From Isoetes taiwanensis (Eukaryota > Streptophyta > Lycopodiopsida > Isoetales > Isoetaceae): 64,000 nucleotides of DNA. The position numbers were made by a program, and so were the translations under genes. Every line of letters begins with the position of its first letter. The stretch's first letter is position 1. The notes beneath the pieces were generated by a model, which was not told the origin of the DNA, did not search any database, and saw only the letters and a program-made list of their open reading frames with translations. This document shows, one piece after another, positions 20,924-52,775 of the stretch. The stretch is taken from NCBI GenBank assembly GCA_021234155.1, contig JAJEKV010000140.1, forward strand, positions 62,001-126,000, in the 5' to 3' direction.

Positions 20924-22700
20924 ATTCCTCCCCCCCTCTAAGACCTTGTCTCAAGGTATTTTAATTAGTTCAGGTGAGGAAACCAATGCACGAATTCATC
21001 CGACTCTCATGTGGCATCCTCTTTATAGAATAACTTTCGTCTATGCTTATTAGCACTAGACTTATATCGATCCTAAGCCCCTTGCAAATTCTGGCCACAA
21101 GACCAAATGCTCTATAACATCTCTGTTGCGCAGCTACCGAACTTTTTTATCCAAAAGACGTTCTGGTGTTACAGAGGAGTTTAAGACAAGCATAACATTT
21201 CAAAAGGTCTAGCATAACGTGAGTTAAGCTTGGGCACCCGTCGTTTCACTAAAGGTCGTAAATTATTCACCCTTAGTGACAAAGGATAGACCACTCTCAG
21301 AAAGATATAATCACCCTCTTTATAGAAGAACTTTCGTCTATGCTTACTAGCACTAGACTTATATCGATCCTGAGCCCCTTGCAAATTCTGCTTGCATTGA
21401 CGTAGTACTGCATCCATATCATGAAGCACATTCATAACTGCTTCCGTTTTGAGATACTTATGCATTCCAGCATAAGTTCTTGGGTTCGTACCAATCATAG
21501 CCGCAAAAGGCATCATCTTGATCCCCATATGGCTATTGTTATAGGCAAATTCCAAATAGGGCAGATAATCCTCCCACTTACTATTTTTTATGAACAAAAC
21601 TTCTCAACATATCCTCTAAATTCATGTTAATTCTCTCAGTTTGTCCATCGGTTTGCAGATGATTACCACTACTCATACGCAACCGAACTTTTAACTGGTC
21701 AAACAATCAAATATGACCAAAATCTGGGTGTGTTGCTTAGCAATCCGGGGTAACGAGACTATAAGTCCATACTCACACATTCCCACCCCTCACTTGGTAT
21801 GGGAGTGGGGTTGCAATAGGCTCGGGGTCTTGCCATATTCAACTTTCACAGCCTGACATACCAAACAATGTGATACCATCTGTTTCACTTGATCTTGCAA
21901 ACCTGGCCAATAGTACTGCCTTTTAGCCAGCTCATAAGTTTTCCATCCCCCATGCCCAGCTTGTGGTGTGTCATGATGCTCATTAATGATTGCTTCTCGC
22001 AATTTTTTGTACAAAGGAATATACAGTCTTCCCTTATAGAAGTACAACCTTTCTGGCTCGGTCCACCAATCCCCAGTTTTGATGACTGCAGGGTCTTGTT
22101 GTTCCTTTGCATAAGCATCCCTAATCCTCTGGAAAAGTTCATTCTCCATGATAACAAGAGCGTTCACATGCTTAATCCTAGATAAAACATATGCTACTGG
22201 GTTATTCTTCCCAGGTGTATGCTCAATACTGAAATGAAATTCATGGAGGAAACCAAGCCATCTAGCCTAGAGCTAATCTCAGCTTGACTTTGCAAAAACC
22301 TCAACGGTTTATGATCCGTATAGACAACGAACTTGTGTGGTTCCTTACGTGTACCACTTATCAAGTAATGCCTCCATGTTTTCAGAGCGTGAACTATTGC
22401 GAATAGTTCTTTCTCATATGTTGCATAATGCCACTCGGTGGGATTAAGCTTTCGGCTTTCATAAGCCACTACGCGATCTTGGTGCATTAATACAGCCCCA
22501 ACTGCTTGACCACAAGCCATCGGTATAACCCTCATGTTTGGATTCCATGAGCCGACTCTAGAAGCTCCAGGCACATGTTTCCATAAATTCGGCTTGCCAT
22601 TTTTCTGTCTCCAATGGGATTCATATGCTTTGTTACTTTCTAAGCTGTTGGAGCAATATTTTGATTCCCTTTGCATTCGTTCTTCAGATAACATGCACTC
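20924..22700 (-). mobile_element. Ty3/gypsy retrotransposon, decayed 3' pol region
   Basis: Reading the minus strand from 22694 down, the order is RNase H (AVGAVLMHQDRVVAYESRKL and the YTDHKPL motif, 22194-22694), integrase zinc-binding region (HHDTPQAGHGG, then CLVCQ; 21790-22167), integrase core motif QTDGQTERIN (about 21605-21680), the end of the core (WEDYLPYLEFAYN) and the C-terminal part (21181-21597). RNase H before integrase is the Ty3/gypsy order. Frames change between blocks and stops are present, so it cannot encode a working enzyme. Gag, protease and reverse transcriptase are missing. A segment of about 75 bp from the C-terminal region is duplicated near 21010-21090. Confidence 0.9.
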
Positions 22701-22850
22701 TATTATTGGAAACGAAGATCTCGGCCATGTATTTGGTGTACAATTATTGGTAAATTTTGATTTCAGGTCGAATTTGCGACAATTTTATTCAGTCTGATCT
22801 TCAAAATCTTAATAGGAATGCATTCTATTGCAAAGTGGCAACTATGCATA

Positions 22851-22895
22851 GAATAGAATAGAATAGAATAGAATAGAATAGAATAGAATAGAATA
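22851..22895. repeat. (GAATA)9 microsatellite, 3' tail of the LINE
   Basis: Nine perfect GAATA units lie here, reading (TATTC)n on the LINE coding strand, directly at the 3' end of the LINE. Some non-LTR element clades end in such short repeats rather than poly(A), so I read it as the element's tail. Confidence 0.85.
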
Positions 22896-25499
22896 AAGTT
22901 TTTATCGTCCACAGAGACCAATTGGCCTATGGAATCCAAACAGGAGGTGCAGCAAGCATATTACTGTCCGGGTTAAAAAACCCCCTCCCCGCCCTAAAGG
23001 GTTGTTTGGGGGAAAAACCATGACTGGAATAGGCTTGCTGTCAAACTGTACAAATACAAAAATAAATATAGACAGAAGTATGTACATGTATCAAGTAAGT
23101 GCTCGAGGGCCGAGCTGATCTCGGCGATCCATGATCTCTTGAATGTATGAGTCCAACCTCCGTACTGAGCTCGTGCTGAGCATCTCATGCAGGGGCTGGT
23201 CAGGATGGACCAGCTCAGCATAGCATATCCGAGTGTCATCATATGCCGGACAACTCTGAAGAATGTGGCATTCGTCTTCCACGTCTCCAACCTGGCAGCT
23301 TGACAAAGCCTCTCCTGACACAGCTCCCCAACCCATCTCCCTGTCTCAATCCAGAGATGGTGTGCACCTGTGCGGATAGAGGCAATGGATTTGCGCTTTT
23401 TCATGGGTAGATGAGTGCGCAGGTAGCATTGCGGGCCCCGCTCTAAACTGAAATTTATGTGGCATCGATAATGTGTCGTCTTGACCTGCTCAAGAGTGCT
23501 GGCATCCCATAGCTTACTGAGGAAGCATGCGTCAAGGTATTGTCTGAGACTGCGGTGATCTGCCTCTTTTGCACTTGGATGCACATGTGCTCCTGCACAT
23601 TCCATCTGGCCAGCTACTGAGCTCTCGTTTCCCGCCAGCAGGCTTTTCGGCGTTGAGGCCCCATTGCCATAGTGTAAGCGAGGTGAGGGAGATGAGTATC
23701 GTCCATGCTGACCACCTTCTGGAAGTAGACGATGTGTCTGTCAAGGGCCCCTCTTTGAAGGGGCAAGAAACCTATTTCCTGCAACAACAGTATCTGGTAT
23801 CAGACTGTGGACTTCAACCCCAGGGCTCGCGCCAAGAAAGCTTTCTGCACCTGCTCCAAGTCATTCTAAGTGGCGAGGGAAATCACTGGGCCCCAGACTC
23901 GACCCTGTACAAAAGCACATGTTCTACTAGCACTTTGAATAGGTATGATTGATGGGCCCAATCATACAGCTCCACCTTGTGGCTATTGTATTGCATAGAG
24001 TGTCTTCCAACCTGCTGCGACTCGCAGCCGGATGGAATTGTCCCAGTTCATGGCCAACGGGGACTCCACCCCCAAATATTTGTAAGTGGACACCACTTCA
24101 CCATTTTGACCACGATATGTGAGGATTGGAGGTGTTGGCTGGCATGCGGACGATACCAGAACTACCTTAATTTTGGCTAAGTTGACGCGCACGTCAGTCA
24201 CCTGACAAAATGTGTCCAGGGCATCGAGATGGCGTTGCATGTCTGCTTGAGTGTGTGCTAGGAGGTCCACATCATCAGCATAGATCAGCTGCCTGATGAT
24301 CTAGTGTAGGAGATGAGTCTCAGTGCCTCCATTATCAGTGAGTCATCTCTCCAAATGGATCAATATATAGGCCAAATAGTGTGGGAAGAGGGCATCCCTG
24401 GCGGACCCCGATACTGCTCTCGAATGGTTGGCCCGCTAGTTGCAGCCGGCCGGTGCATGTCTCATATAACTTGTACACCACCTTCTGCAATTTGGAAGGG
24501 ACGTCTAGCTGCTGCAATCTTGCCCACAGCTTTTCCCGAGGCACAGTGTCAAAAGCCTTGGCGAAGTCTATGAAGCAGCAATACAGATCTTGTCGATGGT
24601 TCATGTTGTCCTCAACCAGAGTCTGCATCGTGAAAATATGATGTATGGTTGAGTGCCCGCACTTCTGTTGTTTCTGCCCATCCTGTCAACTGCCGCTTGA
24701 GGATTCCGGCGAGGAGCTTTGCAAACACTAAGCTGATCATGATAGTCCGGTAATTGGCCGGGCAATGCGAGTCTCCTGCCTTGTAGATTGGGAGAACCCT
24801 GCTAGTGGTCCATTGGGGGAGGAAAACCTTCCCGCAATGTCTTGTTGAACATGTCGGTCAGTACCGGTGCCATGGATGGTCCTGCCCACTTGAGTAACTC
24901 TGCCTGTATGCCATCAAGGTCTGGTGCTTTTTCATTGGCTAGACGTTGCAGCCCATGCGTTACCTCCGCCTCTATGATTTCTTGTACTGGGCCCTGCTGG
25001 GGGGGTAATGTTGCCCGTGCACCCTCAGGGTTGTAGAGCTACTGTAGGTATTGCCTCCACTGTTCTGGAGTGATGTTTCCTGTGGGCGGCACTGGCCTCC
25101 TGAGCACTCTCCGCCAAAAGGTCCTGGGATGATGTTCCAGGAGGAAGAAAATTTCCTGTTGATGGGCCACAATGTACCTGGCCTTTCTAGCCTTAAGGAA
25201 AGTGCGGTATTGCTTGACTACATCCAAGCGTAGAGCAAGGTCTGTGACTTAGCGGAGCCAGCGTTTGCGTTCTTTGCAGTCGGCATCGAACCACTGGTTA
25301 CGCGGAAAGGGTAGCTCTCGAGGTTTGCCGAGGGCGACTTCTACCGAACACCTCTCTGCAGCAGCCCCGAGCACATCAATGAGCCTGCTTGCCTGCTGTT
25401 CCAGCGTTGAGCATTGTGAGATGCTTGTCAGATCCTCTGTAAGTAACTGGGAGTAAGTAGGAGCGCGCTCATAGTCCAGTCTGAGCGATATCACGGAAA
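22896..25499 (-). mobile_element. LINE (non-LTR retrotransposon), 5'-truncated, decayed
   Basis: On the minus strand the reverse transcriptase blocks appear in order: an N-terminal linker region (25249-25494), the thumb-preceding NEKAPDLDGIQAELLKWAG block (about 24900), FIDFAKAFDTVPREKLW and RQGCPL (24335-24628), and the catalytic YADD codons at 24271-24282. The region ends with a C-terminal Cys/His segment (CQVGDVEDECHILQSC) and a stop near 23091. A 3' UTR of about 195 bp leads to the pentanucleotide tail. The endonuclease domain is absent and several frame changes occur. At about 25499 the LINE abuts Helitron helicase sequence, so it inserted into or recombined with a Helitron. Its part above 24530 is repeated in the tandem array. 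Confidence 0.85.
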
Positions 25500-26923
25500 C
25501 GAATCTATTGCATCAAACGAGGGACTTATTGCAGTTAACAATATCCTTATTCAGCACGGAACAACCACCGATGCATTTGGTCTTCCGGCATTAACCACCA
25601 CATCAAGGGACGTTCAAAATGAGCTCTCAAAATTTCCCAATTATGAAGAATACATGACTAAGACTTCCAACATGTTCCAAATCATGAACAAAAATCAATC
25701 AACCATCTACAACTACATCTCAAATCTCATCGACAGTAAACATTCTCCTAACCCAATCTTCATCTACGGTAAGGCAGGAGCTGACGAAACATATGTCCTA
25801 AAAGCCCTATGCCTTCGAATACAAGGATCAAGAAACATTGTGCTCCCATGTGCTATCACTGGACTAGCTTCATGTCTCTACCCTGGTGGTAGAACTGCAC
25901 ACTCCCTATTTCAAATCCCGGTCATCGAGAACAACGTTAATCTCCATTCGCTACTTGATCCACATTCTCCAATGGCACACCTAGTAAGCCAAACAACTGC
26001 TATTATATGAAATGAATTTCCCATGGCTAACCGAGCAGTCATAGAGGCAGTTGACGTGTTGCTTCAAAAATAACAAGAACGAATGCACCCTTTGGAGGAA
26101 AGCTATTTATAGCAAAAGAGACTTCGCACAAGTTGCACCAATCGCCAAAAAGCAAGCAAGACAAATGACAATAAATGCTCCCATAATATCGCCGCACTTA
26201 TGGAACCACTTCCAAGTTCTCGAGCTTAATGAACCAATCAGGAAACTGCCGGAGATCTCGAACTCGTCTCTTTGGTCGATGTCGTTAGAGAAGGAACTTT
26301 ACTTTCAAAACGTGCCATTGACATTATTCAAAAGCACAAACCCACAAGAAGCGCTTGATTTTCTATACAACAAACAAATCGCCAAGGACCCCGAAGCGTG
26401 TGAAAAAGAGGGAATCCAATCTCCTAAAAAATATCCCCACCGACGAATTCAACGACCACGGTCATAGCGTGGACGGACTAACGTAAAACAACCAAACTAT
26501 AGACGACCACCTAATGGCAACAACAGACTTTCTAAATGGCTACAGAGACCCATCATTGCCACAACACGAGCTTCGACTAAAGCCCATCCGTCCAAGTAAA
26601 ATTACTCACAGGGGACCCACAACAAAGAGACAACATTCACCCCATATCGCGTGTTGACTTCTTCCGTCAGCCAGAAAAATGGCCATGGACAATCCACCGA
26701 CGCCAACTCCCACTACGACCTGCGTATTCAACAACGTTCAATAACTGCCTAGGGCTCACACTCGAAGATTGTGATTGACTTGCATAGTGAAGTCTTCGCA
26801 CATGGACAACTTTACACAGCACTCACCCGCATACGAAAAAGAGAAGATGTCCTAATTCTTCTAGACAAAGACAATAAGACAAAGACTATAACCAACGTCG
26901 TCTACAAGGAGCTCCTCCCATGA
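25500..26923 (+). pseudogene. Helitron helicase (Pif1-like) relic, unit 1
   Basis: This is homologous to the fuller helicase at 45149-46858 but clearly diverged, so it comes from another Helitron lineage. It starts abruptly at the LINE junction within the helicase and runs to the C-terminal TALTRIRKREDVLIL block and the stop at 26923. It is dead several times over. The Walker A site reads GKAGADET instead of GKAGTGKT, losing the ATP-binding Lys. The Walker B Trp codon is TGA (26008-26010) and the next Asp has become Asn. Further frame changes follow, including a scrambled motif III (KRDFAQVAPI). Confidence 0.8.
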
Positions 26924-26987
26924 CTAAGGTGCGTAATTCTCCCTCAAAAAAAAAAAGGGAGAGAAAAAAAACTCCATTCGCCTCAAT

Positions 26988-27095
26988 GCCGATGATGTAG
27001 ACGGAGCACCGGTCCCCTACAGGAACCGATGCTCCCTCTACACCGTGGGCAACACGCCCGTGGAGTAACCTGGGTTCGATTCCCAGGGGCGCGCA
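26988..27095 (+). other. Hairpin plus T-arm-like element after the helicase, unit 1
   Basis: A stem-loop built from GTAGACGGAGCA pairing with TGCTCCCTCTAC is followed by GGGC-AACAC-GCCC. Then comes CTGGG-TTCGATT-CCCAG, which matches a tRNA T arm and RNA polymerase III B box. No matching acceptor 5' strand or A box is visible, so I do not call a tRNA gene. The same arrangement follows the other helicase copies. Confidence 0.6.
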
Positions 27096-28499
27096 AAATC
27101 ATTATCATATCATACTATGCATACCTCCCTATTATTCTATCCGTTGAACACGATGTATTCATACACATACCATAACAAAAGCGCTCGCAAATCTTGTAAT
27201 ATATCCTTCCTAAATATATGATTACTAGAATTTTTTTTTTGGAATTACTGACTTTTTGGAATGCATTTTTCGGCAACTTCCCGAGTGCATCTAATCACAA
27301 ACTCTCGCTGCCTTGGTTTTCGGCTAAAAAGTAGCCACAAAAAACCACGGATTAATACATCACTTGCCCACGCTTAAGGTGTTGCCCTACTGCGTCGCGC
27401 CGCGCCGCCGCGTGCTACACCTAGATAGCTCAAACAAAACCCCTTATCGCCTCATCGTGATTTGCGTCTCTCTAGACCGAAACAACTAGAAGAGGCAAAA
27501 ACACAAAACACCCGTGTATGTTTTCAAGGAAACCGCTTTCATGCTATTAGCGAATTTGCAAATAGCTTCTTACTAGAGCTTTCGGGCAAAAAAATTCTGG
27601 CCCCCAATATATATTTTGCAAGATGAAATTGATTCTACAGAGTTGAGCCTAACGTGCCGACAAATTTAGCTCCCTTGCTTTTTTTGCTCGAGCAAAAAGA
27701 GAAAAACCCAGATCCATGTTGTGGCCAAAAACCCTTTTAGTGGGCTGCGATTGAGAAAACCCATCAAATAGAACAACGATTGAATCAAATACTGAAAAAG
27801 AGATGCGAAGAAGTTTAAAAAAAGAGATTGATTCACAAAGCCGAGAAAAGGGAACCCAAAAAAGGATGCAATTTCTTTCTCTTGCCATCTCAAGAGAGAG
27901 TTTTGCAAATTACCATTGCAAATCTGTGGATTGAGAGCCTAATTTGCACCAGAACTTAAAATTCGAGAATTTCCTATCGGCCAACATCTATTAATCAACA
28001 GGGAAAAAAAATATAACATGCTATCTGAAGCCTTTTGTTCAAGATGTGCTCTTTGTTGTGTTCTCAGGCTTCCCTTATAATGCCTCTATCCTATTGAACA
28101 AAATTAGTTTCTTTATGCCCTCAACTCTCTTCACGATTCCTAAAATCTTCCCAAAAAATTAATAGACTTTGGAAATAAGTTCTTAGCGGGAATTGCCAGG
28201 GGCTTCCGAATGCGTTTTCGAGATTCAAATAGAGCTTTTGTTTATAAATTGATGATTGGTAAAGCTAACGAGTTCCTTAAGACAAATAAGCTTTTCAGAG
28301 GGGGGTTAAGCAGAATAATTTTTAGCTCAAAATACATGAAATTCAGTTAGTAGCCGGCGTGATTCTTTGGTTGATAGTGAGACAGGTGCATCACAGAATG
28401 TTGCCAATGAGCTTTTGTTGTTCATGTTCTTGCTGGCCTAATGAAAGAGCTAAGGGAAAAATTATTGCCCTTTCATTTTGACGCAATTGTGATGAAGCT

Positions 28500-28920
28500 A
28501 AGAAATATCTTGAGCAATACCCGAGCAATCCGGTATCTAACATCCCAATCTAAGAGTTCGTGATTTGGGATGATGAATGTGATCCCCGCAGGTTGGACAT
28601 ATAATCATAAGGCAACAAATTGATCCCGTTGTGTGAACAAAAACCAATTAACTTGACCAAATTTCTATGCCGGATCTTCCCCAGAGTGCTCACTTCTCGC
28701 ACATAAACTTTTATCTTTTGTTGGGTCCTCGGCATTCAGCGCAATTACCTTCTTCACAGCGAGCATTTTTCCTTAAGGAAGAATACCTTTATAAACTACT
28801 ACAAATCCACCTGATCCGATCACATTTTCTTCGCTTGATCCATCTGTGGTCTGCATAACCTGACTGAATGTTAATTGCCCCAGCAATTCTTCACCTCTGT
28901 TTCTGAATCCAGCATAAGCC
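28500..28920 (-). pseudogene. LRR receptor-like kinase N-lobe relic, unit 1
   Basis: The minus strand reads ENVIGSGGFVVVYKGILP (Gly-rich loop), a TAA, then GKMLAVKKV with the ATP-binding Lys. After a frameshift within about 30 codons it reads VREVSTLGKIRHRNLVKLIG, LLPYDYMSNL and LDWDVRYRIALGIAQ. This is the kinase N-lobe and hinge of an LRR receptor-like kinase. In this copy the frame is shifted again after SNLR. The catalytic loop and C-lobe are missing. A hydrophobic stretch about 150-330 bp further upstream on the same strand (29063-29257) might be the former membrane segment. It is probably a captured or trapped host gene piece. Confidence 0.75.
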
Positions 28921-30248
28921 AGGGCATAAGAAAGCCTAAGAAACGGAGTATCTCTTAAGAAAATTTCATACTAAACATGGTTACTTGGGCTAGATGGCAA
29001 GGGCAGAGCCACCGACTTCGTACTCAATATAGGAGTATTGATGGGAAAACAAATTAAATGGATTAAACAGATAACAATGGATTCTGCCATGGAATTCTGC
29101 AATAATACAGGTTGATTTGCTCGCAAATTAGAAAACAAAACAGTAGATATACTAAAGCGAAGATCATGCTATTGGCCAGGGCAATCTTGGCCAGGAACGT
29201 ACCTGCGAATCCTGAAGAGTAAAAGCCATAAACACTACTCAAAACATGGTATCTCACTTAAGGAAAAAAGGTACAAAAATTTAAAAACACAGTTTTACTC
29301 TAAAATTCGTTACCGGCCAAACAAATACAGGCGCCATAGCCCTGCTTCTGCTTTGATCCAGAAAGAGCTGTCCGAAAAAGAAACATACCCATGAACTAGA
29401 GTTTGTTAATTGGCTCAAATGATCATGGGAAGAACAACTTGGGATAGTTGTATGAGGCAGTCATTACCGCCAGAGCCAGACCCTCTACTCCTTTGACTTT
29501 GAATTTTCTAAGATGTGGGGGAAAACTGATGATTCTTTGGCAGACACCACCTATACCCTTTGTTTCTAGCTATTAATCCAAATGTAACTACCTTTAAGTT
29601 TTTTAAATATTGTTTTGGGTACGTATCAGGTTTAACTTAGTTTCTTGGTATTACAGAGGCATAAACCATACAGGGTAAACTTCCCGAATAAATTTCAAAA
29701 TTATTTTGAAGCTGGTTATCAAAGCGAAGGACACATGAAGAAGAAAATTACGGTTAAAATTCTATTCTTTGTACATATATTTGTGTGTTGTTGAATTGTG
29801 TATTGTGCAATCTAACAAAAATGGTAACTCACAGATAAAAAAGAGAAAAGAAAAAATAGTGACTGCAAACAACAATGAGCTCGATCCGTGTACTGGTCCA
29901 GGCCATACCGAGCAACATGCAAAGTACATATTCAACTTTTGAAATATAGGATATGTATATTGAAATGCATCAAGAATTGCAATAATTATATATGGTGAAA
30001 TTGATATATAGAGAATGTGACAAACTGAAGTCGCCATCAAATGCAATGGATACAGAAGTACATAATAAGCAACATGAAATGGTGATGAAAAAAAAGGGCG
30101 TCCAAGGTGAGTCAAAATATTTCAATTCTAGTGTAGACCATCTTTAAATCTTTGTATGGTAATGAATTCTATTTTTTATTTATAATCTTTGATTAAGTTA
30201 GGTGATGTATTTTTGTTAATAGATATTAAAAGATCTCTCCTTTAATAG

Positions 30249-30685
30249 GCCTGCTCGACCAAATTCTGAACATCTTAGTGATGTTCAGATAGCCAAAATC
30301 CTTCAACATCGTGAGCGGCAAAGAAACTATGATGCTCGAAAAAAATTGAAGATCGCTATAGTTCCAAAAACTGAGAAAGAAATGTATAATGAACTAAAGA
30401 GTGGCATTTTACCATTTGATCAAATGGCTATGCAGCAACAAATAAGAGCTTCAGATTCTCTAGCTCCAGTCTCATCAGATGATATGTCATCGTCGATAAA
30501 TAAACTCCATAGGGATCGTGATTGCAAATCGATCCCTATGGAGCAAGAGATTAAAGTCCCAAATCTTTCAACTCCCATCACATCAAGTGCAATGTAATCA
30601 CCGCAAAACAAAATCGAAAGATGCGTAATCATGTTAAACCTATAGACCATGAACCGCTAAAGTGGACTAAAACATGTGAAACATG
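30249..30685 (+). pseudogene. Start of Helitron Rep gene, cut at the unit 1/unit 2 junction
   Basis: After a pyrimidine-rich tract and TAATAG| a frame opens reading SEHLSDVQIAKILQHRERQR and continues as in the fuller copy at 42552. At 30686 it is cut and LINE sequence of the next unit begins. Relative to units 2 and 3 this copy has extra small changes, for example the CACAGAATCACTGG stretch is altered, giving a stop near 30595. Confidence 0.8.
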
Positions 30686-31650
30686 CTTTTCCCGAGGCAC
30701 AGTGTCAAAAGCCTTGGCGAAGTCTATGAAGCAGCAATACAGATCTTGTCGATGGTTCATGTTGTCCTCAACCAGAGTCTGCATCGTGAAAATATGATGT
30801 ATGGTTGAGTGCCCGCACTTCAGTTGTTTCTGCCCATCCTGTCAACTGCCGCTTGAGGATTCCGTGAGGAGCTTTGCAAACACTAAGCTGATCATGATAG
30901 TCCGTAATTGGCCGGCAATGCGAAGTCTCCCCGCCTTGTAGATTGGGAGAACCCTGCTAGTGGTCCATTGGGGGAGGAAAACCTTCCCGCAATGTCTTGT
31001 TGAACATGTCGGTCAGTACCGGTGCCATGGATGGTCCTGCCCACTTGAGTAACTCTGCCTGTATGCCATCAAGGTCTGGTGCTTTTTCATTGGCTAGACG
31101 TTGCAGCCCATGCGTTACCTCCGCCTCTATGATTTCTTGTACTGGGCCCTGCTGGGGGGGTAATGTTGCCCGTGCACCCTCAGGGTTGTAGAGCTACTGT
31201 AGGTATTGCCTCCACCGCTCGGGTGATGTTTCCTCGTGGGCCTGGCCTCCCCGAGCACTCTCCGCCAAAAGGTCCTGGGATGATGTTCCAGGAGGAAGAA
31301 AATTTCCTGTTGATGGGCCACAATGTACCTGGCCTTTCTAGCCTTAAGGAAAGTGCGGTATTGCTTGACTACATCCAAGCGTAGAGCAAGGTCTGTGACT
31401 TAGCGGAGCCAGCGTTTGCGTTCTTTGCAGTCGGCATCGAACCACTGGTTACGCGGAAAGGGTAGCTCTCGAGGTTTGCCGAGGGCGACTTCTACCGAAC
31501 ACCTCTCTGCAGCAGCCCCGAGCACATCAATGAGCCTGCTTGCCTGCTGTTCCAGCGTTGAGCATTGTGAGATGCTTGTCAGATCCTCTGTAAGTAACTG
31601 GGAGTAAGTAGGAGCGCGCTCATAGTCCAGTCTGAGCGATATCACGGAAA
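30686..31650 (-). mobile_element. LINE 5' part, unit 2 copy
   Basis: This repeats 24530-25499 of the LINE with small indels, mostly around CAG, CTG and CCGG sites (for example near 30865-30935 and 31210-31255). The YADD-containing part of the LINE is not included in the repeated segment. Confidence 0.85.
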
Positions 31651-33073
31651 CGAATCTATTGCATCAAACGAGGGACTTATTGCAGTTAACAATATCCTTA
31701 TTCAGCACGGAACAACCACCGATGCATTTGGTCTTCCGGCATTAACCACCACATCAAGGGACGTTCAAAATGAGCTCTCAAAATTTCCCAATTATGAAGA
31801 ATACATGACTAAGACTTCCAACATGTTCCAAATCATGAACAAAAATCAATCAACCATCTACAACTACATCTCAAATCTCATCGACAGTAAACATTCTCCT
31901 AACCCAATCTTCATCTACGGTAAGGCAGGAGCTGACGAAACATATGTCCTAAAAGCCCTATGCCTTCGAATACAAGGATCAAGAAACATTGTGCTCCCAT
32001 GTGCTATCACTGGACTAGCTTCATGTCTCTACCCTGGTGGTAGAACTGCACACTCCCTATTTCAAATCCCGGTCATCGAGAACAACGTTAATCTCCATTC
32101 GCTACTTGATCCACATTCTCCAATGGCACACCTAGTAAGCCAAACAACTGCTATTATATGAAATGAATTTCCCATGGCTAACCGAGCAGTCATAGAGGCA
32201 GTTGACGTGTTGCTTCAAAAATAACAAGAACGAATGCACCCTTTGGAGGAAAGCTATTTATAGCAGCAGGAGACTTCAGACAAGTTGCACCAATCGTCAA
32301 AAAAGCAAGCAAGACAGCGACAATAAATGCTCCCATAATATCGTCGCACTTATGGAACCACTTCCAAGTTCTCGAGCTTAATGAACCAATCAGAAATGCC
32401 GGAGATCTCGAACTCGTCTCTTTGGTCGATGTCGTTAGAGAAGGAACTTTACTCGAAAACGTGCCATTGACATTATTCAAAAGCACAAACCCACAAGAAG
32501 CAGTTGATTTTCTATACAACAAACAAATCGTCAAGGACCCCAGAAGCGTGTGAAAAAAGAGGAATCCAATCTCCTAAAAATATCCCTGTCGACGAATTCA
32601 ACGACACAGTCATAGCGTGGACAGACTAACAGAAAACAACCAAACTATAGACGACCACCTAATGGCAACAACAGACTTTCTAAATGGCTACAGAGACCCA
32701 TCATTGCCACAACACGAGCTTCGACTAAAGCCCATCCGTCCAAGTAAAATTACTCACAGGGGACCCACAACAAAGAGACAACATTCACCCCATATCGCGT
32801 GTTGACTTCTTCCATCAGCCAGAAAAATGGCCATGGACAATCCACCGACGCCAACTCCCACTACGACCTGCGTATTCAACAACGTTCAATAACTGCCTAG
32901 GGCTCACACTCGACAAGATTGTGATTGACTTGCATAGTGAAGTCTTCGCACATGGACAACTTTACACAGCACTCACCCGCATACGAAAAAGAGAAGATGT
33001 CCTAATTCTTCTAGACAAAGACAATAAGACAAAGACTATAACCAACGTCGTCTACAAGGAGCTCCTCCCATGA
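31651..33073 (+). pseudogene. Helitron helicase relic, unit 2
   Basis: This copy has the same dead Walker A (GADET) and Walker B stop (32159-32161) as unit 1. It preserves motif III best: AAGDFRQVAPIVKK reads cleanly at about 32260-32300, whereas units 1 and 3 are garbled there. Its reading frame through LELNEPIRNAGDLEL and NVPLTLFKSTNP is also cleaner. Confidence 0.8.
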
Positions 33074-33140
33074 CTAAGGTGCGTAATTCTCCCTCAAAAA
33101 AAAAAAGAGAAAAAAAAAAACTCCATTAAGCCTCAATCTC

Positions 33141-33245
33141 GATGATGTAGGCCAGACACCGGTCCCCTACAGGAACCGATGCTCCCTCTACACCGTGGGC
33201 AACACGCCCGTGGAGTAACCTGGGTTCGATTCCCAGGGGCGCGCA
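33141..33245 (+). other. Hairpin plus T-arm-like element, unit 2
   Basis: The T-arm-like CCTGGGTTCGATTCCCAGG at 33219-33237 is identical to units 1 and 3. The 5' arm of the hairpin is altered here (GATGTAGGCCAGACACC). Confidence 0.6.
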
Positions 33246-34644
33246 AAATCATTATCATATCATACTATGCATACCTCCCTATTATTCTATCCGTTGAACA
33301 CGATGTATTCATACACATACCATAACAAAAGCGCTCGCAAATCTTGTAATATATCCTTCCTAAATATATGATTACTAGAATTTTTTTTTTGGAATTACTG
33401 ACTTTTTGGAATGCATTTTTCGGCAACTTCCCGAGTGCATCTAATCACAAACTCTCGCTGTCTTGGTTTTCAGCTAAAAGTAGCCACAGCAAACCCTGGG
33501 ATTAATACATCACTTGCCCACGCTAAGGTGTTGCCCTACTCTGTGCCGCACCTGCCGCCGTGCTACACCTAGATAGCTCAAACAAAAACCCCAGTCGGCC
33601 TACGTATTTGCAGCTCTCTAGACCGGGAACAGCTAGAAGAGGCAAAAAACACAAAACACCCAGGTATGTTTTCAAGGAAACTGCTTTCTGTATGCTATTA
33701 GCGAATTTGCAAATAGCTTCTTACTAGAGCTTTCGGCAAAATTTCTGGCCCGAAATATATATTTTGCAAGATGAAATTGATTCTACAGAGTTGAGCCTAA
33801 CGTGCCGACAAATTTAGCTCCCTTGCTTTTTTTGCTCGAGCAAAAAGAGAAAAACCCAGATCCATGTTGTGGCCAAAAACCCTTTTAGTGGGCTGCGATT
33901 GAGAAAACCCATCAAATAGAACAACGATTGAATCAAATACTGGGAAAAGAGATGCAGCAAGCGCAAAAAAGAGATTGATTCACAAAGCCAGAAAAGGGAA
34001 CCCAAAAAGCGGATGCAATTTCTTTCTCTTGCCATCTGAAGAGAGAGTTTTGCAAATTACCATTGCAAATCTGTGGATTGAGAGCCTAATTTGCACCAGA
34101 ACTTAAAATCTGAGAATTTCCTATCGGCCAACATCTATTAATCAACAGGGAAAAAAAATATAACATGCTATCTGAAGCCTTTTGTTCGAAGATGTGCTCT
34201 TTGTTGTGTTCTGTGCTTCCCTTATACGCCTCTATCCTATTGAACAAAATTAGTTTCTTTATGCCCTCAACTCTCTTCACGATTCCTAAAATCTTCCCAA
34301 AAAATTAATAGACTTTGGAAATAAGTTCTTAGCGGGAATTGCCAGGGGCTTCCGAATGCGTTTTCCAGGATTCAGCCGAGCTTTTGTTTATAAATTGATG
34401 ATTGGTAAAGCTAACGAGTTCCTTAAGACAAATAAGCTTTTCAGAGGGGGGTTAAGCAGAATAATTTTTAGCTCAAAATACATGAAATTCAGTTAGTAGC
34501 CGGCGTGATTCTTTGGTTGATAGTGAGACAGGTGCATCACAGAATGTTGCCAATGAGCTTTTGTTGTCTGTGCTCCTTGCTGGCCTAATGAAAGAGCTAA
34601 GGGAAAAATTATTGCCCTTTCATTTTGACGCAATTGTGATGAAG

Positions 34645-35066
34645 CTAAGAAATATCTTGAGCAATACCCAGAGCAATCCGGTATCTAACATCCCAATCTA
34701 AGAGTTCGCATTTGGGATGATGAATGTGATCCCGCAGGTTGGACATATAATCATAAGGCAACAAATTGATCCCGTTGTGTGAACAAAAACCAATTAACTT
34801 GACCAAATTTCTATGCCGGAGATCTTCCACAGTGCTCACTTCTCGCACATAAACTTTTATCTTTTGTTGGGTCCTCGGCATTCAGCGCAATTACCTTCTT
34901 CACAGCGAGCATTTTTCCTTAAGGAAGAATACCTTTATAAACTACTACAAATCCACCTGATCCGATCACATTTTCTTCGCTTGATCCATCTGTGGTCTGC
35001 ATAACCTGACTGAATGTTAATTGCCCCAGCAATTCTTCACCTCTGTTTCTGAATCCAGCATAAGCC
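34645..35066 (-). pseudogene. LRR receptor-like kinase N-lobe relic, unit 2
   Basis: The gene piece is the same as in unit 1. Here the frame stays open from VREVST to LDWDVRYRIALGIAQDIS, so the hinge part is longer, but STLGKIRHRN reads STVEDLRHRN because of small changes around 34820-34830. The in-frame TAA after the Gly-rich loop is shared. Confidence 0.75.
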
Positions 35067-36396
35067 AGGGCATAAGAAAGCCTAAGAAACGGAGTATCTC
35101 TTAAGAAAATTTCATACTAAACATGGTTACTTGGGCTAGATGGCAAGGGCAGAGCCACCGACTTCGTACTCAATATAGGAGTATTGATGGGAAAACAAAT
35201 TAAATGGATTAAACAGATAACAATGGATTCTGCCATGGAATTCTGCAATAATACAGGTTGATTTGCTCGCAAATTAGAAAACAAAACAGTAGATATACTA
35301 AAGCGAAGATCATGCTATTGGCCAGGGCAATCTTGGCCAGGAACGTACCTGCGAATCCTGAAGAGTAAAAGCCATAAACACTACTCAAAACATGGTATCT
35401 GCCGGAAGGAAAAAGGTACAAAAATTTAAAAACAGTTTTACTCTAAAATTAGATTCTGCCGGCCAAACAAATACAGGTAGCCATAGCCCCCTACGCTTCG
35501 CTTTGATCCGAAAGAGTCAGTCCGAAAAGAAACATACCCATGAACTAGAGTTTGTTAATTGGCTCAAATGATCATGGGAAGAACAACTTGGGATAGTTGT
35601 ATGAGGCAGTCATTACCGCCAGAGCCAGACCCTCTACTCCTTTGACTTTGAATTTTCTAAGATGTGGGGGAAAACTGATGATTCTTTGGCAGACACCACC
35701 TATACCCTTTGTTTCTAGCTATTAATCCAAATGTAACTACCTTTAAGTTTTTAAATATTGTTTTGGGTAATGTGTCGGGTTTAACTTAGTTTCTTGGTAT
35801 TACGAGGCATAAACCATACAGGGGTAAACTTCCTAATAAATTTCAAAATTATTTTGAAGCTGGTTATCAAAGCGAAGGACACATGAAGAAGAAAATTACG
35901 GTTAAAATTCTATTCTTTGTACATATATTTGTGTGTTGTTGAATTGTGTATTGTGCAATCTAACAAAAATGGTAACTCACAGATAAAAAAGAGAAAAAGA
36001 AAAATAGTGACTGCAAACAACAATGAGCTCGATCCGTATTCGGTCCAGGGCCATACCGAGCAACATGCAAAGTACATATTCAACTTTTGAAATATAGGAT
36101 ATGTATATTGAAATGCATCAAGAATTGCAATAATTATATATGGTGAAATTGATATATAGAGAATGTGACAAACTGAAGTCGCCATCAAATGCAATGGATA
36201 CAGAAGTACATAATAAGCAACATGAAATGGTGATGAAAAAAAAGGGCGTCCAAGGTGAGTCAAAATATTTCAATTCTAGTGTAGACCATCTTTAAATCTT
36301 TGTATGGTAATGAATTCTATTTTTTATTTATAATCTTTGATTAAGTTAGGTGATGTATTTTTGTTAATAGATATTAAAAGATCTCTCCTTTAATAG

Positions 36397-36837
36397 GCTG
36401 CCTCGACCAAATTCTGAACATCTTAGTGATGTTCAGATAGCCAAAATCCTTCAACATCGTGAGCGGCAAAGAAACTATGATGCTCGAAAAAAATTGAAGA
36501 TCGCTATAGTTCCAAAAACTGAGAAAGAAATGTATAATGAACTAAAGAGTGGCATTTTACCATTTGATCAAATGGCTATGCAGCAACAAATAAGAGCTTC
36601 AGATTCTCTAGCTCCAGTCTCATCAGATGATATGTCATCGTCTGATAAACCAAGCTCCATAGGGATCGTGATTGCAAATCAGATCCCTATGGAGCAAGAG
36701 ATTAAAGTCCCAAATCTTTCAACTCCCATCACATCAAGTGCACAGAATCACTGGCAAAACAAAATCGAGAAGATGCAGAATCATGTTAAACCTATAGACC
36801 ATGAACCGCTAAAGTGGACTAAAACATGTGAAACATG
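36397..36837 (+). pseudogene. Start of Helitron Rep gene, cut at the unit 2/unit 3 junction
   Basis: Nearly identical to the beginning of the fuller Rep gene at 42552 up to KTCETC, where LINE sequence starts. The open frame then runs on by chance into LINE sequence to 36949. Confidence 0.85.
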
Positions 36838-37809
36838 CTTTTCCCGAGGCACAGTGTCAAAAGCCTTGGCGAAGTCTATGAAGCAGCAATACAGATCTTG
36901 TCGATGGTTCATGTTGTCCTCAACCAGAGTCTGCATCGTGAAAATATGATGTATGGTTGAGTGCCCGCACTTCTGTTGTTTCTGCCCATCCTGTCAACTG
37001 CCGCTTGAGGATTCCGGCGAGGAGCTTTGCAAACACTAAGCTGATCATGATAGTCCGGTAATTGGCCGGGCAATGCGAGTCTCCTGCCTTGTAGATTGGG
37101 AGAACCCTGCTAGTGGTCCATTGGGGGAGGAAAACCTTCCCGCAATGTCTTGTTGAACATGCCTGGCCAAGACACCGGTGCCATGGATGGTCCTGCCCAC
37201 TTGAGTAACTCTGCCTGTATGCCATCAAGGTCTGGTGCTTTTTCATTGGCTAGACGTTGCAGCCCATGCGTTACCTCCGCCTCTATGATTTCTTGTACTG
37301 GGCCCTGCTGGGGGGGTAATGTTGCCCGTGCACCCTCAGGGTTGTAGAGCTACTTGTAGGTATTGCCTCCATCGCTCGAGTGATGTTTCCCCGTGGGCGT
37401 GACCGCCTCCCCGGCACTCTCCGCCAAAAGGTCCTGGGATGATGTTCCAGGAGGAAGAAAATTTCCTGTTGATGGGCCACAATGTACCTGGCCTTTCTAG
37501 CCTTAAGGAAAGTGCGGTATTGCTTGACTACATCCAAGCGTAGAGCAAGGTCTGTGACTTAGCGGAGCCAACGTTTGCGTTCTTTGCAGTCGGCATCGAA
37601 CCACTGGTTACGCGGAAAGGGTAGCTCTCGAGGTTTGCCGAGGGCGACTTCTACCGAACACCTCTCTGCAGCAGCCCCGAGCACATCAATGAGCCTGCTT
37701 GCCTGCTGTTCCAGCGTTGAGCATTGTGAGATGCTTGTCAGATCCTCTGTAAGTAACTGGGAGTAAGTAGGAGCGCGCTCATAGTCCAGTCTGAGCGATA
37801 TCACGGAAA
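36838..37809 (-). mobile_element. LINE 5' part, unit 3 copy
   Basis: Third copy of the LINE segment. It matches unit 1 closely, with local changes near 37160-37175 and 37370-37415. Confidence 0.85.
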
Positions 37810-39230
37810 CGAATCTATTGCATCAAACGAGGGACTTATTGCAGTTAACAATATCCTTATTCAGCACGGAACAACCACCGATGCATTTGGTCTTCCGGCA
37901 TTAACCACCACATCAAGGGACGTTCAAAATGAGCTCTCAAAATTTCCCAATTATGAAGAATACATGACTAAGACTTCCAACATGTTCCAAATCATGAACA
38001 AAAATCAATCAACCATCTACAACTACATCTCAAATCTCATCGACAGTAAACATTCTCCTAACCCAATCTTCATCTACGGTAAGGCAGGAGCTGACGAAAC
38101 ATATGTCCTAAAAGCCCTATGCCTTCGAATACAAGGATCAAGAAACATTGTGCTCCCATGTGCTATCACTGGACTAGCTTCATGTCTCTACCCTGGTGGT
38201 AGAACTGCACACTCCCTATTTCAAATCCCGGTCATCGAGAACAACGTTAATCTCCATTCGCTACTTGATCCACATTCTCCAATGGCACACCTAGTAAGCC
38301 AAACAACTGCTATTATATGAAATGAATTTCCCATGGCTAACCGAGCAGTCATAGAGGCAGTTGACGTGTTGCTTCAAAAATAACAAGAACGAATGCACCC
38401 TTTGGAGGAAAGCTATTTATAGCAAATAGAGACTTCGCACAAGTTGCACCAATCGTCAAAAAAGCAAGCAAGACAGCGACAATAAATGCTCCCATAATAT
38501 CGTCGCACTTATGGAACCACTTCCAAGTTCTCGAGCTTAATGAACCAATCAGAAATGCCGGAGATCTCGAACTCGTCTCTTTGGTCGATGTCGTTAGAGA
38601 AGGAACTTTACTCGAAAACGTGCCATTGACATTATTCAAAAGCACAAACCCACAAGAAGCAGTTGATTTTCTATACAACAAACAAATCGTCAAGGACCCC
38701 AGAAGCGTGTGAAAAAAGAGGAATCCAATCTCCTAAAAATATCCCTGTCGACGAATTCAACGACACAGTCATAGCGTGGACAGACTAACAGAAAACAACC
38801 AAACTATAGACGACCACCTAATGGCAACAACAGACTTTCTAAATGGCTACAGAGACCCATCATTGCCACAACACGAGCTTCGACTAAAGCCCATCCGTCC
38901 AAGTAAAATTACTCACAGGGGACCCACAACAAAGAGACAACATTCACCCCATATCGCGTGTTGACTTCTTCCGTCAGCCAGAAAAATGGCCATGGACAAT
39001 CCACCGACGCCAACTCCCACTACGACCTGCGTATTCAACAACGTTCAATAACTGCCTAGGGCTCACACTCGAAGATTGTGATTGACTTGCATAGTGAAGT
39101 CTTCGCACATGGACAACTTTACACAGCACTCACCCGCATACGAAAAAGAGAAGATGTCCTAATTCTTCTAGACAAAGACAATAAGACAAAGACTATAACC
39201 AACGTCGTCTACAAGGAGCTCCTCCCATGA
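37810..39230 (+). pseudogene. Helitron helicase relic, unit 3
   Basis: It shares the GADET Walker A and the Walker B TGA (38318-38320). Motif III is damaged as in unit 1 (GACTTCGCACAAG instead of GACTTCAGACAAG at about 38430), while the following 250 bp match unit 2. Confidence 0.8.
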
Positions 39231-39299
39231 CTAAGGTGCGTAATTCTCCCTCAAAAAAAAAAAGGGAGAGAAAAAAAAATCCATTCGCTTCAATGCCGA

Positions 39300-39402
39300 T
39301 GATAGATGTAGAGCACCGGGTCCCCTACAGAACCGATGCTCCCTCTACACCGTGGGCAACACGCCCGTGGAGTAACCTGGGTTCGATTCCCAGGGGCGCG
39401 CA
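39300..39402 (+). other. Hairpin plus T-arm-like element, unit 3
   Basis: The T-arm-like sequence is unchanged (about 39375-39393). The first stem is shortened by small indels (GATGTAGAGCACCGGG). Confidence 0.6.
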
Positions 39403-40806
39403 AAATCATTATCATATCATACTATGCATACCTCCCTATTATTCTATCCGTTGAACACGATGTACTCATACACATACCATAACAAAAGCGCTCGCAAATC
39501 TTGTAATATATCCTTCCTAAATATATGATTACTAGAATTTTTTTTTTTTTTTTTTTTTGAATTACTTGACTTTTTGAATGCATTTTTTTCGAACTTCCCG
39601 AGTGCATCTAATCACAAACTCTCGCTGTCTTGGTTTTCAGCTAAAAGTAGCCACAGCAAACCCTGGGATTAATACATCACTTGCCCACGCTAAGGTGTTG
39701 CCCTACTCTGTGCCGCACCTGCCGCCGTGCTACACCTAGATAGCTCAAACAAAAACCCCAGTCGGCCTACGTATTTGCAGCTCTCTAGACCGGGAACAGC
39801 TAGAAGAGGCAAAAAACACAAAACACCCAGGTATGTTTTCAAGGAAACTGCTTTCTGTATGCTATTAGCGAATTTGCAAATAGCTTCTTACTAGAGCTTT
39901 CGGCAAAATTTCTGGCCCGAAATATATATTTTGCAAGATGAAATTGATTCTACAGAGTTGAGCCTAACGTGCCGACAAATTTAGCTCCCTTGCTTTTTTT
40001 GCTCGAGCAAAAAGAGAAAAACCCAGATCCATGTTGTGGCCAAAAACCCTTTTAGTGGGCTGCGATTGAGAAAACCCATCAAATAGAACAACGATTGAAT
40101 CAAATACTGGGAAAAGAGATGCAGCAAGCGCAAAAAAGAGATTGATTCACAAAGCCAGAAAAGGGAACCCAAAAAGCGGATGCAATTTCTTTCTCTTGCC
40201 ATCTGAAGAGAGAGTTTTGCAAATTACCATTGCAAATCTGTGGATTGAGAGCCTAATTTGCACCAGAACTTAAAATCTGAGAATTTCCTATCGGCCAACA
40301 TCTATTAATCAACAGGGAAAAAAAATAAACATGCTATCCAAGCCTTTTGTTCAAGATGTGCTCTTTGTTGTGTTCTCAGGCTTCCCTTATACGCCTCTAT
40401 CCTATTGAACAAAATTAGTTTCTTTATGCCCTCAACTCTCTTCACGATTCCTAAAATCTTCCCAAAAATTAATAGACTTTGGAAATAAGTTCTTAGCGGA
40501 ATTGCCGGGGGCTTCCTAATCGTTTTCCGTGATTCAAATAGAGCTTTTGTTTATAAATTGATGATTGGTAAAGCTAACGAAGTTCCTTAAGACAAATAAG
40601 CTTTTCGAGGGGGGGTTAAGCGTAATAATTTTTAGCTCAAAATACATGAAATTCAGTTAGTAGCCTACGTGATTCTTTGGTTGATAGTGAGACAGTGCAT
40701 CACGTAATGTTGCCAATGAGCTTTTGTTGTCATGTTCCTTGCTGGCCTAATGAAAGAGCTAAGGGAAAAATTATTGCCCTTTCATTTTGACGCAATTGTG
40801 ATGAAG

Positions 40807-41228
40807 CTAAGAAATATCTTGAGCAATACCCAGAGCAATCCGGTATCTAACATCCCAATCTAAGAGTTCGCATTTGGGATGATGAATGTGATCCCGCAGG
40901 TTGGACATATAATCATAAGGCAACAAATTGATCCCGTTGTGTGAACAAAAACCAATTAACTTGACCAAATTTCTATGCCGGATCTTCCCCAGAGTGCTCA
41001 CTTCTCGCACATAAACTTTTATCTTTTGTTGGGTCCTCGGCATTCAGCGCAATTACCTTCTTCACAGCGAGCATTTTTCCTTAAGGAAGAATACCTTTAT
41101 AAACTACTACAAATCCACCTGATCCGATCACATTTTCTTCGCTTGATCCATCTGTGGTCTGCATAACCTGACTGAATGTTAATTGCCCCAGCAATTCTTC
41201 ACCTCTGTTTCTGAATCCAGCATAAGCC
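40807..41228 (-). pseudogene. LRR receptor-like kinase N-lobe relic, unit 3
   Basis: The kinase piece is the same, here with both the canonical STLGKIRHRNLVKL and the full LDWDVRYRIALGIAQ reading. This makes it the best-preserved hinge region of the three, but the TAA after the Gly-rich loop and the frameshift before VREVST remain. Confidence 0.75.
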
Positions 41229-42551
41229 AGGGCATAAGAAAGCCTAAGAAACGGAGTATCTCTTAAGAAAATTTCATACTAAACATGGTTACTTGGGCTA
41301 GATGGCAAGGGCAGAGCCACCGACTTCGTACTCAATATAGGAGTATTGATGGGAAAACAAATTAAATGGATTAAACAGATAACAATGGATTCTGCCATGG
41401 AATTCTGCAATAATACAGGTTGATTTGCTCGCAAATTAGAAAACAAAACAGTAGATATACTAAAGCGAAGATCATGCTATTGGCCAGGGCAATCTTGGCC
41501 AGGAACGTACCTGCGAATCCTGAAGAGTAAAAGCCATAAACACTACTCAAAACATGGTATCTGCCGGAAGGAAAAAGGTACAAAAATTTAAAAACACAGT
41601 TTTACTCTAAAATTCGTTACCGGCCAAACAAATACAGGCGCCATAGCCCTGCTTCTGCTTTGATCCAGAAAGAGCTGTCCGAAAAAGAAACATACCCATG
41701 AACTAGAGTTTGTTAATTGGCTCAAATGATCATGGGAAGAACAACTTGGGATAGTTGTATGAGGCAGTCATTACCGCCAGAGCCAGACCCTCTACTCCTT
41801 TGACTTTGAATTTTCTAAGATGTGGGGGAAAACTGATGATTCTTTGGCAGACACCACCTATACCCTTTGTTTCTAGCTATTAATCCAAATGTAACTACCT
41901 TTAAGTTTTTTAAATATTGTTTTGGGTACGTATCAGGTTTAACTTAGTTTCTTGGTATTACAGAGGCATAAACCATACAGGGTAAACTTCCCGAATAAAT
42001 TTCAAAATTATTTTGAAGCTGGTTATCAAAGCGAAGGACACATGAAGAAGAAAATTACGGTTAAAATTCTATTCTTTGTACATATATTTGTGTGTTGTTG
42101 AATTGTGTATTGTGCAATCTAACAAAAATGGTAACTCACAGATAAAAAAGAGAAAAGAAAAAATAGTGACTGCAAACAACAATGAGCTCGATCCGTGTAC
42201 TGGTCCAGGCCATACCGAGCAACATGCAAAGTACATATTCAACTTTTGAAATATAGGATATGTATATTGAAATGCATCAAGAATTGCAATAATTATATAT
42301 GGTGAAATTGATATATAGAGAATGTGACAAACTGAAGTCGCCATCAAATGCAATGGATACGTATACATAATAAGCAACATGAAATGGTGATGAAAAAAAA
42401 GGGTCCAAGGTGAGTCAAAATATTTCAATTCTAGTGTAGACCATCTTTAAATCTTTGTATGGTAATGAATTCTATTTTTTATTTATAATCTTTGATTAAG
42501 TTAGGTGATGTATTTTTGTTAATAGATATTAAAAGATCTCTCCTTTAATAG

Positions 42552-45500
42552 GCTGCCTCGACCAAATTCTGAACATCTTAGTGATGTTCAGATAGCCAAA
42601 ATCCTTCAACATCGTGAGCGGCAAAGAAACTATGATGCTCGAAAAAAATTGAAGATCGCTATAGTTCCAAAAACTGAGAAAGAAATGTATAATGAACTAA
42701 AGAGTGGCATTTTACCATTTGATCAAATGGCTATGCAGCAACAAATAAGAGCTTCAGATTCTCTAGCTCCAGTCTCATCAGATGATATGTCATCGTCTGA
42801 TAAACCAAGCTCCATAGGGATCGTGATTGCAAATCAGATCCCTATGGAGCAAGAGATTAAAGTCCCAAATCTTTCAACTCCCATCACATCAAGTGCACAG
42901 AATCACTGGCAAAACAAAATCGAGAAGATGCAGAATCATGTTAAACCTATAGACCATGAACCGCTAAAGTGGACTAAAACATGTGAAACATGTCACATCC
43001 AACTCCTAAACAATGAGAGCCCAAGTTTCTGTTGTAATAACGGACGCCGTTTACTTCCACCACTTGAACGTCTTCCAGACCAACTGGAGGAGTTATACTC
43101 CATGCACAAATTTGCAACAAACTCACGAGTGATCAATAATTTGTTCTGCTTCACTGCACTTGGTGTTAAAGGCGACTTTGTCACCCTAAAAACTCCTTCG
43201 GCTCTTGCTATCATGGGCCGAACATATCATCGTCTTCTATCTGCAAATGAGCCAAATAGCACTTTACATTGGTATATATATGACGATGCATGCCGATATG
43301 CAATTGCTACTGATAGACACATACCAGCTACTTGGATTACACAAGTTGCTGCAACTCTGGATGCTATTAATCCATACATTAAGGAATTGCAAACAGTCAA
43401 GGAATTAAATGCCTCGCCTGCAACACTCACGCTTGCAGACTCGACATCATTAGATGAAATCGCCAGTATAATGCATGCCAACGACAGTATCACGATCAAA
43501 CCTAGAACTGCAGCAATTTGGATGCGAAGTGACCATAAACCGGTGTTCATTAGTATCTTCGACCCTACATATGAAACACTGCAATATCCATTATTTTTTC
43601 CACACGGAACGTTAGGATGGCATCCACATAATGAATATAAAATGTCTCAAATAGACTGGTATCGAACTAGGCTATTACATGAACCACGTTTCTCACTATT
43701 GGGCAGACTTTGCAACGGATATCTCGTGGATATGTATTCAAGAGTGGAAGAGGAACGACTCAATTATATTGCGACAGAAGGTTACAGACACAATTTAACC
43801 CAACACGAAGAAGACTTCATCGATGACGATGACGAGGGTACTCGACGTGGAATACTGCCAGCTTCCTTTTTAGGCTGTAAACGATGGTGCACAGTGCAAG
43901 TAGCCGATGCGCTCGCACTTGCAAGAGTAAAAGGAAGACCAACCTTATTTATAACTATGACCACTAATCCTATCTGGCCATAAATGAAGTCCAAATTGAT
44001 GCCTAGACAAAATGCATCAGATGTCCCAATCATTGTCGTTTGAGCGTGCCATGAACGAGTGCAACAAACAAAAAGCATCATCCGTAGATTTTTTGGTCCG
44101 CTGTTTTACATGATGCATGTCATTGAATTTCAAAAACGCGGCCTTCCACATGCGCATATTGTTGTCAAAACTGAATATGATATTCCTGTCAACATGATTG
44201 ATCAACTCATTTTGCGCTGAACTACCAACAGATCCAGTATTGCGAGCGCAAGTTGAAAAATATATGATTCATAGGCATACAAAGTGATGCCTAAAAGAGA
44301 ATAATAGATGTTGTTATCATTATCCAAAGCCTATAAATCCAACAACATACATAGACGAAAAAGGATATGTCCAATATAGAAGGTGGACAGAGGACGACGT
44401 AAATGTTGTTCCATATATTCCATTCTTACTACATGAAATGGATTGCCACATATATGCAGATATTGCATTGACAGTCCATATATTTGCATATCTTTATGGG
44501 TACATCTATAAGGGTCTTGATACCACTCGCTTTCACATTGATGTTGACCATAAATCATCATCGTCAACACAAGCTACACCTAATATAACACCTCAGTCCA
44601 CAAATCAACCCAATAAAACTCAGCCACAACGAAAAAACGAAGTTCAAGACTACATCTCTGCACATTATCTGTCATCCATGGAAGCAGGGTGGAGAATCAT
44701 GTCGTACCATATGACTGAAAAACATCCATCGGTCAAGTGTCTCCCTTTACATCTCAAGGGACAAAACAGACCACAGTTCGGAAAAACGTCCACAGCAAAT
44801 ATTGGAATTTCCGCATTGGATAGGTACTTTTTGCGTCCACTCACGCCTGAATTCGATTCCATCACCTACATCGACTACACCGAGCATTATACGTTTACTA
44901 GTTATAAGCCCAACACCATATTACAATCATCCGATCAACTCGAGCAAGAATATCCAGGCGCAACACGAAATGTTGTGCATGAATGATCAAGGGGAGAACT
45001 CATCTGCAGGATACGTCTACTACTCCCAAAGGTTGGAGAGCCATTCTACTTAAGAAGCATCCTTCTCCACAAACCAGGACGTTCTTGGGAAGAGCTCAAA
45101 GTCCATGATGGGCAACACTATGAGACCTATCAAGAAATTGCTCAGGCTATGGGCATAATTGCACTGGCAACTGAAGCAATCAAGACAATGGAAGAAGCAA
45201 TATCATGTCTCCAAACTCCATCACAACTTAGATTTCTATTTACACTTCTCATACTCGATGGTGGACCAGCCTTACAGCTATGGGAAACTTTCCAACAACA
45301 AATGACAACTGACTTCTTCGACCAATATCAAGGAGATGAGGCTACTGCCACCAATGAAGCCCTCCTGGCCATCAATAATATCTTAGTACAACATGCGACC
45401 AACACTGCAGCATTCGGTCTATCCATTTGTCATGTATCATGCAGAGAAATTCAAAACGAGCTCGCAAAATTCCCGCATGACGAAGAATATCTTGCCAAAA

Positions 45501-46858: not shown

Positions 46859-46898
46859 ATCAGGTGCGTACAAAAAAAAAAACATTTCATTCACGCCG

Positions 46899-52740: not shown

Positions 52741-52775
52741 TTCAGAAGTTGACACCTAGACCTAATATTAACTCC

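Follow-up and report, generated by a model that had tools for sequence, protein, structure and literature searches.

The tandem array and the elements it cuts

Here we describe a tandem array in the genome of Isoetes taiwanensis, which lies in a window of 64,000 nucleotides (the whole stretch of DNA analysed; assembly GCA_021234155.1, contig JAJEKV010000140.1, positions 62,001 to 126,000 of the forward strand). Positions are those of the window unless another contig is named. Comparison of the window with itself revealed three adjacent units in direct orientation and in register, which share one pair of breakpoints (Table 1). One breakpoint lies inside the reverse transcriptase (RT) of a minus-strand long interspersed nuclear element (LINE), and the other inside the plus-strand Rep gene of a Helitron that we call Helitron B. 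Where one unit meets the next, the two joints are alike letter for letter, and the window contains the 15-mer AAACATGCTTTTCCC at 30679 and 36831 and nowhere else. Homology at the joint amounts to a single terminal G, common to the left flank and the unit. A first-pass annotation of this DNA had proposed units of 6156, 6152 and 6155 bp at 24530-42992, a single shared breakpoint pair, no more than 1 bp of homology at the joint, and breakpoints in these two genes; all of this was borne out, the last point by the RVT_1 domain and the Helitron_like_N frame described below. Broad literature searches, the only ones made, returned no published description of the array.

Table 1. Features of the array and of its surroundings in the window (slashes within sequences mark joints or element boundaries)
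Feature	Position	Strand	Length	Remarks
Unit 1	24530-30685		6156 bp	direct copy
Unit 2	30686-36837		6152 bp	direct copy
Unit 3	36838-42992		6155 bp	direct copy
Joint 1	30679-30693			AAACATG/CTTTTCCC; Rep frame fused to LINE RT, 1 bp homology (G)
Joint 2	36831-36845			letters identical to joint 1
LINE copy (non-LTR RT)	22885-25478	-		from homology to one copy on contig C1038; extent approximate
Helitron A remnant	25490-27196	+		PIF1 helicase part; putative 3' end ...GCAAATCTTG; repeated in units 2 and 3
Helitron B	39511-47086	+		putative ends A/TCCTTCC ... AAATTCTTG/T
Helitron B Rep frame	42526-43980	+		Helitron_like_N at residues 379-485; cut by right breakpoint
Helitron B PIF1-type helicase frame	44987-46855	+		right flank
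Long terminal repeat (LTR) retrotransposon pol fragments (RNase H, integrase H2C2)	21793-22784	-		left flank, outside unit
Raf1 (Rubisco accumulation factor 1) gene	11743-13083	+		

The LINE lies with its 3' end at low coordinates, adjoining an ATAGA repeat array (22848-22895). Its domain at the left breakpoint is RVT_1 (E 1.4e-11), with the motifs FIDFAKAFDTVPRE and GVRQGCPL legible, and the cut at 24530 leaves about 949 bp of the 5' side of the element in every unit. On the other side, position 42992 is the last before the right breakpoint, which falls in codon 156 of the 485-residue open Rep frame, upstream of Helitron_like_N. The outer flanks continue the two broken genes, as had been claimed, and both edges run unbroken in other genomic copies, including one on a second contig, C1027, to which we return below. 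At the LINE edge, 40 of the 41 matches listed, window included, cross the breakpoint (best 40 of 4554 candidates scored); at the Rep edge, at least seven places, again counting the window, match the whole 600 bp (best 40 of 154 candidates scored).

Helitrons usually begin with TC, end with a hairpin followed by CTRR, and insert between A and T. Helitron B holds both a Rep with Helitron_like_N and a PIF1-type helicase, which form two separate frames in the assembly. We placed its ends at the limits of homology with copies on contigs C919 and C1083, giving putative 5' ends at 27204, 33354 and 39511 in units 1, 2 and 3, and only the first 3.48 kb of the element lie inside the unit. The termini read A/TC...CTTG/T, and inspection by eye showed a hairpin some 10 bp short of the end in the C919 copy and the first C1083 copy; the 3' end is CTTG rather than CTRR, its position being uncertain by a few bases. 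Helitron A, of which the unit holds the 3' part and which the first-pass annotation does not mention, is about 67-70% identical to the C1083 family. Its 3' end was placed by a pattern that it has in common with Helitron B, and its 5' end was not located.

The first-pass annotation had raised the possibility that rolling-circle replication of a Helitron produced the tandem units, directly or as a concatemer, and the unit does contain parts of two Helitrons, one of them interrupted in its Rep frame. However, neither edge of the unit was found at a Helitron 5' TC or 3' CTRR-type end. Between the joint and the ends of Helitron B there are 3.48 kb on the putative 5' side and 4.09 kb on the 3' side, the unit starts about 2.67 kb from the nearest Helitron end that could be located, and the left breakpoint is inside the LINE, with the 5' end of Helitron A outside this reckoning. 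Nor does the unit contain a whole Helitron, as it stops at 42992, short of the 3' end of Helitron B. With the located ends 2.7-4.1 kb from the breakpoints, this part of the first-pass annotation is not supported, and we regard a rolling-circle origin as extremely improbable.

Some further features were seen in and around the unit. The putative 3' end of Helitron A and the putative 5' end of Helitron B lie 7 bp apart, head to tail (27181-27210). About 140 bp separate the right breakpoint from a perfect 14-bp stem with a 14-nt loop (42809-42850). Directly to the right of Helitron B is a LUC7-like N-terminal frame (47725-48129), where divergence from C1027 is low.

A counterpart with one unit on a second contig

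The window belongs to a contig that we denote C953, and C1027 is collinear with it over about 72 kb, from -5303 to 66651 in window coordinates (60 kb of C1027 compared). In this interval C1027 carries one unit of 6093 bp (C1027:15883007-15889099), in which both broken genes are continuous. Its LINE and Rep edges run unbroken about 6.1 kb apart, and around both breakpoints its letters are identical to those of C953 for 12 bases or more in either direction. The ancestral single-copy order, which the first-pass annotation considered readable from the flanks, is shown directly by C1027.

Two further comparisons bear on the relationship between the contigs. Self-match aside, positions 5001-7000 of C953 align best to C1027, with 89 and 92% at 15.762 and 15.791 Mb; the third-best place reaches 76%. 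Raf1, a gene that points to a photosynthetic host, was found at two places only in the genome, on C953 and on C1027, in copies that are 98% alike; TIMELESS, which as a single gene is a weak control, is present at one. The simplest reading of these similarities is that C953 probably represents the other haplotype of part of C1027, retained in the assembly. The array would then probably be a haplotype difference, triple on C953 and single on C1027, since C1027 is collinear, diverges by less than one percent once error contexts are removed, and holds one unit. As side observations, the two places on C1027 that match positions 5001-7000 of C953 (C1027:15762346 and 15791043) are 28.7 kb apart, suggesting another local duplication on that contig, and the series from C907 to C1110, which makes 204 numbers, as many as the scaffolds given for the assembly (PMC8566536), suggests that C953 is an optical-map scaffold.

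Divergence, sequencing error and age

Raw substitutions between C953 and C1027 vary from 0 to 11% per kb, with 0.8-1.0% at Raf1, 0.2% at LUC7, 5-10% in the LINE and 3.5-6% in the right part of Helitron B. The units differ at 224 of 6126 positions (units 1 and 2), 191 of 6126 (units 1 and 3) and 144 of 6130 (units 2 and 3), an apparent raw divergence of 2.4-3.7%. The assembly was made by R9.4.1 nanopore sequencing with Guppy 3.1, minimap2/miniasm, racon and pilon, and was finished by Bionano optical-map scaffolding, LR_Gapcloser and purge_haplotigs (PMC8566536). Plants methylate CG and CHG contexts (PMC8514461), and methylation differences likely lower the accuracy of nanopore basecalling in plants (PMC9749173).

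Stretches of low and of high divergence between the two contigs were picked by hand, so that a higher rate in the high set is built in, while the ranking of motifs is not. The high set comprises the LINE and Helitron B together with the unannotated 9600-11300 and much of 52600-62400, and its description as transposon DNA is therefore only partly shown. Over the collinear interval, massive differences at CAG/CTG/CCG/CG sites are seen in the high-divergence stretches. In these stretches CAG/CTG was disrupted at 411 of 534 sites, against 92 of 1086 for AAT/ATT; the corresponding fractions in the low stretches were 19/356 and 13/641. The replacements of CAG/CTG were mainly CGG, ACG, C-G, CGA and TTG. 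Real C-to-T decay driven by methylation was considered and rejected as the main cause, because TAG and CAA are rare among the replacements. Most substitutions in the high-divergence, largely transposon DNA compared here thus lie at or near CAG/CTG/CCG/CG, and behave as systematic nanopore errors.

The differences among the units have the same character. The units form a mosaic, in which tracts identical in all three (853 and 570 bp) alternate with odd tracts, in which one unit departs from the other two. Eight odd tracts were chosen among 48 runs, and in each of them the departing unit is the poorest in CAG/CTG, the margin being one site in three of the eight. Gene conversion between units was set aside as an explanation of this mosaic, as the CAG/CTG-poorest unit is read as the less polished copy; for the odd tract 27300-28000, a search for a donor turned up nothing closer than the other units themselves. 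The differences from unit to unit are mostly nanopore error at methylation-type motifs combined with patchy polishing. A bias of this kind is what nanopore errors at methylated cytosines would produce. If genome-wide, it would inflate the ages of repeats and mislead on claims of gene conversion and on transposon frames taken to be 'decayed', unless these contexts are masked.

To obtain clean columns, we removed all positions within 4 bases of CG, CAG, CTG, CCG or CGG, or of runs of at least 4. In the flanks, with each window base counted once and the array left out, divergence between C953 and C1027 fell from 1939/52494 (3.7%) to 128/22028 (0.58%), with 36/12131 (0.30%) on the left and 92/9897 (0.93%) on the right. 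Real divergence survives the filter: Helitron B and its relative on C1083 still differ at 88 of 1708 positions (5.2%), and the LINE and its relative on C1038 at 35 of 524 (6.7%). Over 2026 clean columns, units 2 and 3 differ at 2, units 1 and 2 at 6, and units 1 and 3 at 8, while over 1999 columns units 1, 2 and 3 differ from the unit on C1027 at 22, 16 and 16. The three units therefore resemble one another more than they resemble the unit on C1027 (Fisher p 0.0007, 0.002 and 0.01). An old duplication, as the raw distance of about 10% between the units and C1027 would imply, is rejected by these counts. Measured against the haplotype split, the array appears recent, and one may cautiously suggest that it is younger than the split.

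The near identity of the units also bears on their number. The joint could be real and the unit count a product of assembly, with two copies, or more than three, miscounted as three. Units that are almost identical outside error contexts make 6-kb overlaps easy to confuse in an assembly made and finished by the steps listed above (PMC8566536). On the other hand, the window contains no N, and the units differ in error patches (357 variable columns) and in a poly-T run that is longer in unit 3, although polishing can itself create such differences. We consider a miscount unlikely, yet deserving of serious attention.

Origin of the array

We favour the view that the array is an ordinary tandem segmental duplication of 6.15 kb of nested transposon remnants, present on the C953 haplotype and single on that of C1027, with a probability of roughly 0.7. 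According to this view, a single event of end joining or template switching, with 1 bp of homology, would have joined the point in the Helitron B Rep to the point in the LINE RT, giving two copies, and unequal exchange between these would have given the third. The second joint would be identical to the first because it was made by exchange between existing copies; the combination requires only one rare joint, and so would explain its exact repetition. End joining and an assembly artefact were both named as alternatives in the first-pass annotation. The homology at the joint is indeed of end-joining size, which agrees with the former, whereas an artefact is less likely for a joint that recurs exactly.

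A single identical joint used twice would also fit a circular multimer. One may imagine that the 6.15-kb unit formed an extrachromosomal circle, multiplied, and returned to its own locus by homologous recombination. This route cannot be distinguished in its product from plain tandem duplication followed by unequal exchange. Moreover, when 600 bp with joint 1 in the middle were compared with the genome, the joint was not found elsewhere among the best 40 of 2587 candidates scored. The middle of the query is crossed by the window's own two joints alone, the other listed matches ending at 301 or beginning at 297-316. We consider an extrachromosomal circle very unlikely.

Several points weigh against tandem duplication on one haplotype as we propose it. 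The copy number of three is taken from a miniasm-based assembly of 6-kb repeats. Allelism was examined at two stretches that lie within about 124 kb of the 1.63-Mb C953; further probes from C953, at 0.8, 1.2 and 1.6 Mb, proved repetitive and did not match C1027 where allelism would predict. The lone unit of C1027 may have resulted from collapse, or from contraction at a later time; contraction to one copy would leave the same sequence, so that the order established is single copy first, and either haplotype may have changed last. As to age, the clean differences of unit pairs compared with those of the flanks give p = 0.12 (units 1 and 2), 0.35 (units 1 and 3) and 0.002 (units 2 and 3). Against the left flank alone the value for units 2 and 3 is 0.16, and the 0.30% of that flank resembles the divergence of units 1 and 2.

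A second tandem duplication, which involves a relative of Helitron B, is found at C1083:1685068-1714756, where copies of about 15.9 and 13.8 kb stand head to tail. They differ at 6 of 3363 clean columns over the part compared, and several indels, each about 0.2-1.6 kb long, also set them apart. The array on C953 is therefore not the sole event of this kind in the genome. Among the matches scored, five loci resemble the Rep edge over its full length at a level of at least 88%. Tandem duplication was seen at two of these, C953/C1027 and C1083, with C919 viewed within 20 kb only and C1036 and C1048 left out. It would be tempting to propose that the unit multiplied as an extrachromosomal circle before returning to the locus it came from, and that DNA carrying the Helitron B family has an unusual tendency to duplicate in tandem; this combined proposal is in our opinion a long shot. 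The C1083 breakpoints lie outside the Helitron and show no homology at the joint by eye, and this second case around the same family further argues against rolling-circle replication.

Tandem arrays or concatemers of Helitrons are known to arise from rolling-circle transposition. The present array resembles them in having Helitron sequence in tandem. It differs from them in that its unit is not bounded by any located Helitron end, includes a piece of a LINE and the Helitron A remnant, and lacks the 3' half of Helitron B. Retained haplotigs, in turn, are known from diploid long-read assemblies, and C953 and C1027 resemble such a pair in being collinear with sub-percent divergence outside error contexts. 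The closest likeness is to an established process, in which end joining or a template switch during replication creates a tandem segmental duplication and unequal crossing over enlarges it. The array is like its products in its direct units, its breakpoint pair, its 1 bp of homology, the near identity of its units and the difference between haplotypes, and no departure from them was seen. It would thus be one more tandem duplication, useful in that its unduplicated counterpart sits in the same assembly.

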